From the NCBI GenBank assembly GCA_031288225.1, contig JAITRU010000010.1, positions 1-49,554 of the forward strand: a DNA stretch of 49,554 nt, given 5' to 3'. A program made the translations under genes and the position numbers. Below the pieces are notes generated by a model, which was given only the letters and a program-made list of their open reading frames with translations, searched no databases and was not told the DNA's origin. Source of the DNA: Holosporaceae bacterium. GTDB taxonomy: Bacteria > Pseudomonadota > Alphaproteobacteria > UBA3830. Of the stretch, positions 48,752-49,546 are shown in pieces; positions within the stretch are counted from its first letter, which is position 1, and each line of letters begins with the position of its first letter.

Positions 48752-49112
48752 AAGTTAATTGAAAACCGTGTGATCATCTGTTTTACGAAAGCTGCGCGTT
48801 CTGTAGGATTGGGATTTAGCGGAGAAGCTGAGAAAAGAACTAAAAGCGTGTGGGCAGGTGAGCTCATGGATCGTCTTCGCCTTGGGTGTGTTGTGAAGTC
48901 CTGACATCGGTTTGATGTTGGACGAAAACGGTGGAGAGTCTTTCCTTCCACACGAGTGTTTCTAAAAGCTCCGGCAGGAATGACGGTAAAGGTCCGGTTT
49001 TCCGCGGGAGCTTCGTTCCTTTCGGGTGTTTTTCGGGAAAGCGTGTGGAGCATACGGAGAGTATATTCTGTTGATGGTGCCTGCTATACCCAATCACGCT
49101 GAGAAAGCGAGC
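48752..49112. other. GC-richer non-coding stretch before the repeats
   Basis: 361 bp, visibly richer in GC than the neighbouring intergenic DNA. Minus-strand frames exist but look like read-through of a non-coding repeat, with no ribosome site or domain. It includes a small dyad CATC/GATG near 48905-48917 and GTGGA/TCCAC near 48930-48953. A dispersed repeat is suspected but cannot be shown from one copy. Confidence 0.4.
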
Positions 49113-49418
49113 TTATACCATTCCTCATTATTAATTTTTCGCTGCAAGCGCCAGGTGGCCTTGTATTCAGGCTATCTAGAAAAGCTTTCAGATAATTTGT
49201 TCTGAGGAATGGTATTATACCAAATCCCATCATCGATTAGCCATTGCCCGCCTGGCAGCGGCTGCCATAGAGCGTGTTCTAGAAGTTATTTGGACAATCC
49301 AAAATGGGAAATGGCCTTATACCAAATCCCATCATCGATTAGCTATTGCCCGCCTGGCAACAGCTGCCATAGAGCGTATTCTAGAAGCCGTTTGGACAAT
49401 CTAAAATGAGATTTGGTA
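49113..49418. repeat. Three tandem 102-bp repeat units with palindromic ends
   Basis: Units 49113-49214, 49215-49316 and 49317-49418 each start TTATACCA and end TGGTA or TGGCC. The second and third differ at about 13 of 102 positions by eye; the first is much more diverged but aligns along its length (start, GCC-rich middle, TCTAGAA, end). The start and end of a unit are inverted copies: 49115-49127 with 49203-49215 (13 bp perfect), and about 49214-49230 with the right end of the third unit. Confidence 0.85.
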
Positions 49419-49546
49419 TAATTCTTAATCCAAAAAGCTAGAGTCTTGTGCGTTACGTCATAAATTTTCGCAACTTCCGTTATCCCATAGCTGCAGGCGG
49501 CTATTATCGCCTCCAACTTCCTCGCTACCAGCGCATTACCTCCCAT
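49343..49546 (-). pseudogene. Truncated HTH transposase-like fragment
   Basis: 67-codon frame starting ATG 49546 with AAGGA upstream. Residues about 9-43 form a helix-turn-helix of the type at the N-terminus of IS630-like and related transposases (KLEAIIAACSYGITEVAKIYDVTHKTLAFWIKNY). After residue 43 the frame runs into the 102-bp repeat and stops, so the catalytic DDE domain is missing. It is either a transposase broken by the repeats or the start of an element whose end was replaced. A stand-alone small HTH protein cannot be excluded. Confidence 0.6.

Follow-up and report, generated by a model that had tools for sequence, protein, structure and literature searches.

The window analysed here, a stretch of 49,554 nucleotides, forms the whole of contig C2 in the 938,161-base, 52-contig assembly of a Holosporaceae bacterium, and carries at its end an array of three short palindromic elements. 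From sequence comparison, these are very probably three MITE copies belonging to two subfamilies (A and B). An IS630-family transposase very probably moved them in trans, with duplication of a 3-bp TNA target, and they landed beside earlier copies or beside a second palindromic repeat, R. Elements of this kind are known as parasites of bacterial genomes; here the 3-base target is unusual, and copies tend to land beside their own kind.

The array at the contig end

The array starts at 49113, 49215 and 49317, with spacings of 102 and 102 bases, and TTATACCA is found at these three positions and at three other places in the window. Each 102-bp unit consists of a 99-bp palindromic body (TACCA...TGGTA) and one common 3-bp TNA target duplication. 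The first-pass annotation had described three copies of one unit, each bounded by inverted ends. The three starts and their spacing were confirmed, but unit 1, of subfamily A, is only 46.5% identical to unit 2 and 48.5% identical to unit 3, which are both of subfamily B and 86.9% identical to each other. The array therefore does not repeat a single unit three times. Inverted ends are present in units 1 and 3; unit 2 is without a proper right end, TGGCC standing in place of TGGTA.

On the left, the array lies at the cut in a remnant of repeat R (49085–49116, minus strand; 97% match to R query positions 60–91), which is interrupted at an internal TTA, the junction being at R position 61. The left outer flank TTA was read at 49113–49115. 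Unit 1 (99 bp, TACCATTCC...GGAATGGTA) follows at 49116–49214 on the plus strand. A TTA at 49215–49217 is common to units 1 and 2, and another at 49317–49319 is common to units 2 and 3. Unit 2 (99 bp, plus strand, 49218–49316), with the decayed right end, is 97% identical to the copy at C6:5110. Unit 3 (99 bp, plus strand, 49320–49418) has two intact ends and is 99% identical to B copies in C44 and C5. The right outer flank, at 49419–49421, is TAA, unlike the left TTA. Beyond it, the N-terminal HTH region of an IS630-family transposase is present as a fragment at 49422–49546 on the minus strand, interrupted by unit 3, and the contig ends 8 bases further on, inside the transposase reading frame. 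As the first-pass annotation had reported, this HTH fragment adjoins the array and its frame runs into the repeat; it meets a stop in unit 3, at 49343–49345. An Rfam scan of the window gave no family at the gathering threshold.

The unit farthest from the fragment had been proposed as the oldest. This was not borne out, as unit 1 is identical over its 99 bases to a copy at C22:34962; it looks different because it is a member of another subfamily.

Since its outer flanks are unequal, the array is not seated in one intact target, and the point where it meets the IS630 gene probably arose either through recombination between element copies or through misassembly. It is possible, though rather doubtful, that the whole array is an assembly chimera in which reads were joined through near-identical copies. 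The last unit stops 136 bases short of the contig end, the outer flanks differ (TTA/TAA), and contigs C20 and C23 start with element copies, which all speak for a chimera; against it, nine other arrays were found in the same genome, six of them with matching outer flanks, and arrays are also present in a relative. Such repeats may help to explain the fragmented assemblies of these genomes.

Copies, boundaries and target duplications

Other copies were looked for in the genome and its relatives, as had been proposed, and were found in both. The fetched stretches of the 938-kb assembly hold 65 copies, which excludes a chance array. This number is a lower bound (the first look scored 40 of 101 candidates). 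Matches with fewer than 60 aligned bases or with E above 1e-4 were dropped, and the copies at C10:24664 and C41:51345 are outside the 65. The end test was failed by L046:3302 and L055:1804 (both weak, 64–65% identity), L048:401 and unit 2 of the window, leaving 61 two-ended copies. The body is 99 bp long in 56 of these; the others measure 98 (two copies), 101 (two) or 104 bp (one).

Flanking target duplications, another proposed check, were evident: identical 3-bp flanks border 48 of the 61 copies (TAA 24, TTA 20, TGA 2, TCA 1, TTC 1) and unequal flanks the other 13. TNA is the left flank in 58/61 and the right flank in 58/61. Because array members have flanks in common, the solitary two-ended copies give the cleaner count, and 33 of 40 have identical flanks. 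Two kinds of empty site were read. Intact R reads GAGAAAGCGAAC-TTA-TGTAGCGG, and the R copy in C41 reads TTA-element-TTA with each half of R still present. An element also lies inside an IS630 gene of genome G034, at CATTA-TAA, where the related IS copies L142 and L146 have a single TAA. The comparison of occupied and empty sites thus sets the duplication at 3 bp for the MITEs.

The consensus sequences of subfamilies A and B are 47% identical. Subfamilies D and E, from relatives, are 70–79% identical to B and to each other, and 23 of the 28 D copies and three of the four E copies scored are 99 bp long. A further type, Cc, is 89–90 bp long. Hairpin folding gave z values of -5.0 for unit 1 and, for unit 3, -5.1 on the minus strand and -2.7 on the plus strand. 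The elements are short and repeated, have inverted ends and a target site duplication, and are without a transposase gene, as is expected of MITEs. Matches at E ≤ 1e-4 were obtained in 10 of 49 genomes of the order (the own genome and nine others), in 3 of 11 genera. The head pattern was found in 25 stretches of named genome records, all of them Holosporaceae bacterium MAGs, and was absent from the viral contigs searched.

In-frame insertion into genes had also been suggested, and a repeat of this size recalls the protein-coding palindromic elements of Rickettsia, which sit in frame inside genes. The sum 99+3 is divisible by three, and some frames are often open: one in B (33 of 42 copies scored), one in A (10/15) and each of three others in D (18/23). 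However, the open frames differ between subfamilies, B's frame being closed in the E consensus and in every one of the 23 D copies scored, and substitutions are spread over the three codon positions. Gene avoidance was tested on 29 solitary copies that had good ends and no fewer than 400 bases of sequence on either side. In 5 of these 29, the empty site would be spanned by an ORF of 100 aa or longer, against 69% of random positions. The random positions came from 3000 tries in the same stretches, those falling in one short locus being skipped; as these stretches were chosen round the copies, the control is a local one. No clear case of an in-frame copy inside a conserved gene was seen in the fetched stretches. 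The copies avoid genes, and a coding role is highly improbable.

Adjacent copies and the R hot spot

Among the 65 copies, 12 adjacent pairs in 10 arrays have exactly 3 bases in common, for which random placement would give about 0.004 by our own estimate, or a few times more if only intergenic DNA were open. Ten of the 12 pairs have one orientation in both members (six are A then B, three B-B and one B-A) and two are opposed. In relatives, six more adjacent pairs with a 3-base gap were counted among 46 copies scored, all in genome Ncb351_bin22, in arrays of two to four units; one of these gaps is CAA, not TNA.

The first-pass annotation had explained the array by tandem duplication. In that case, slippage or unequal recombination would have multiplied one 102-bp unit head to tail. 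The exact 102-base spacing, the head-to-tail order and the same orientation in 10/12 pairs would suit this, but unit 1 of the window is of another subfamily, orders are mixed, some pairs are opposed, and in B-B pairs all six of six units have their best match elsewhere in the genome and not in their neighbour. As the closer relatives of the units lie outside the array, the array was built by separate insertions, and we regard tandem duplication as very unlikely. Arrays with a common target site duplication record repeated insertion beside resident copies.

The outer flanks are equal in six of the 10 arrays and unequal in four. One of the six, in C47, has TAA outside and TCA inside, a pattern that may fit a dimer moving as a unit, or mutation, rather than plain serial insertion. 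Among the nine A/B arrays, the correlation between A and B distances is weak (Mantel r 0.52, p 0.054), and some dimers may thus have moved as a unit. Insertion beside their own ends is a property of IS911 and IS30. At L048 180-1000 (C28), two B copies and the remnant of a Cc copy interrupt a transposase gene, presumably of an IS30-like element.

Repeat R is a second palindromic element, with a 90-bp body, TACYCAATCAC ends and TA flanks, present in the window at 1–42 and 49085–49116. The search, which scored 40 of 66 candidates, gave 62 matches in the genome, 16 of them covering 80 or more of the 96 query bases. Tandem pairs of R have a period of 92 in four of the five pairs listed and of 93 in one; 92 corresponds to the 90-base body plus a common TA. 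R is a built-in comparison in the same genome. Separate insertion at the flanking duplication of a resident element would explain both periods, 102 and 92. R is also a hot spot for the MITEs, since 7 of 52 insertion sites adjoin it at one same TTA. R is present on both sides at one of these seven sites and on one side only at four; the remaining two are at a contig start, where the other side is unreadable. At C42, the 5' end of an IS630 element follows the R hot-spot point. A third short repeat, with ends like TATACATAAACTGTTTTGAAAGTGC, was noted at L060 1370-1480 and in flanks at L053 and L044; it lies near the elements and inside an IS630 copy.

The IS630 link and known systems

The window fragment gave only weak Pfam HTH matches, all below cut-off, and no IS630 match of its own in NCBIfam. 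It was assigned through related loci: 34 of 40 residues (85%) agree with the first ORF of L146, and 31 of 40 with the corresponding ORF of L142. L146 carries two IS630 transposase ORFs with an A-rich tract between them. ORF2 scores 142 bits against the NCBIfam IS630 model NF033545 (cut-off 100) and 100 bits against Pfam DDE_3 (PF13358); ORF1 scores 65 bits against the NCBIfam model, below its cut-off. A full-length element with the same HTH had been proposed as a check; in the own assembly, 5' pieces of IS630 are present, but no complete IS630 of the matching kind was found, the catalytic-domain search giving no match at E ≤ 1e-6. Contigs C2 and C42 end inside an IS630 gene, so a repeated intact copy could have been lost in assembly gaps. 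At C36, a Cc-A array that has TGA flanks interrupts a relative of the window fragment.

The ends of these ISs are TACCA-like, and TNA adjoins 15 of 17 readable ends (9/10 at the 3' side, 6/7 at the 5' side). This count leaves aside three 3' and two 5' matches in which no end could be recognised, and a 5' end lying at a contig edge. Own-genome 5' ends were read at C51, C42 and C36, the last with GTA, not TNA, beside an IS end, and similar ends are found in relatives. The C51 copy, detected by an end-only match, shares a 21-base left end with subfamily A. Further in than the first 11 bases, the MITE interiors are modestly like the IS ends (best z 5.5 of several comparisons, many below 3). At the loci checked, the only IS copy found with two ends is flanked by TAA and TGA; as these are unequal, the 3-bp duplication is shown for the MITEs and not yet for the IS. 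At the start of L152 (G040:C33), an IS630 3' end is followed by one common TAA and then by the apparent end of another element, so that an IS and a MITE would be adjacent.

The elements might instead be moved by an IS5-family, IS1031-like transposase, the nearby IS630 pieces being merely targets. The IS1031-like group of the IS5 family gives 3-bp TNA duplications, as seen here, and the own genome holds IS5-type fragments (DUF4096 + DDE_Tnp_1, C12:7107-7574). However, the TACCA ends are carried by IS630 copies, and no inverted-end pair with equal TNA flanks was found, by the criteria applied, at 34 loci round PF01609/PF13359 genes or fragments (16 of the 34 were also examined for general inverted repeats), nor was a complete IS5-type element with TACCA ends seen at these loci. 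This origin is unlikely. Separately, the C12 fragment (L074 1495-1962) encodes the N-terminus of an IS5-type transposase. An A element is inserted there, and its TGA duplication overlaps the start codon of the fragment; the sequence immediately preceding the insertion, GAGATTTGGTA, is similar to an element end.

The idea of a non-autonomous, MITE-like palindromic element, put forward in the first-pass annotation, holds, since the window fragment shares 85% of 40 residues with an IS630-family transposase and the ISs of this group have similar ends beside TNA; the inverted ends, the many copies and the target duplications agree with it. In the mechanism that we propose, an IS630-family transposase would recognise TACCA-type ends and move the 99-bp MITEs in trans. 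It would excise the element and insert it at a TNA that is cut with a 3-bp stagger, giving the 3-bp TNA duplication. Favoured targets would be a TNA beside a resident element or the fixed TTA inside R, and later copies landing beside earlier ones with one TNA in common would give the 102-base period (99+3). In the window, the copies would have landed at the R hot spot, and recombination between element copies, or misassembly, would have made the junction to the IS630 gene. We infer the acting transposase, its stagger, its targeting preference and the recombination step.

Integration at TA with a stagger of 2 bp counts as a hallmark of the IS630/Tc1/mariner group. We somewhat favour the view that a branch of IS630 elements in Holosporaceae switched from a 2-bp TA to a 3-bp TNA duplication, with a transpososome that prefers a TNA beside its own ends, so that MITE arrays grow. 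If this is true, such a bacterial branch, duplicating a 3-bp TNA, would mean that the stagger can change within the IS630 family, and would supply natural sequences to compare. The parts of the literature retrieved, with ISfinder outside the search, described no TNA duplications for bacterial IS630 and no such MITE arrays, which is weak evidence.

The nearest described system found, RUP/IS630-Spn1 of the pneumococcus, was compared by its available description. RUP is a 107-bp palindromic element with 108–110 copies, IS630-like ends and a proposed insertion in or near IS elements (PMC2229807, PMC3049150). The elements described here are likewise short and palindromic, with ends in common with IS630-family ISs of their own or a related genome. 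Arrays with a common target site duplication are prominent here, and no mention of them was found in the portions of the RUP reports seen. Unlike RUP, whose insertion sites contain TA according to those descriptions, the present elements duplicate a 3-bp TNA. The palindromic elements of Rickettsia are likewise short repeats of intracellular alphaproteobacteria (PMC2229807, PMC10969869). They lie in frame inside genes, whereas the present elements avoid genes and are without a coding signal. The L146 transposase conforms to the IS630 family in its DDE_3 domain, its match to the NCBIfam IS630 model and its two ORFs. In the excerpts consulted, Mariner/Tc1/IS630 transposases are given a strict TA integration with a 2-bp stagger (PMC5481204), a rule from which the MITEs depart by their 3-bp TNA. 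Fot elements (pogo superfamily, IS630-Tc1-mariner group) are described there as having mostly 3-bp TAA duplications instead of TA (PMC7386202); they are eukaryotic and use TAA, whereas the elements of this genome use TNA.
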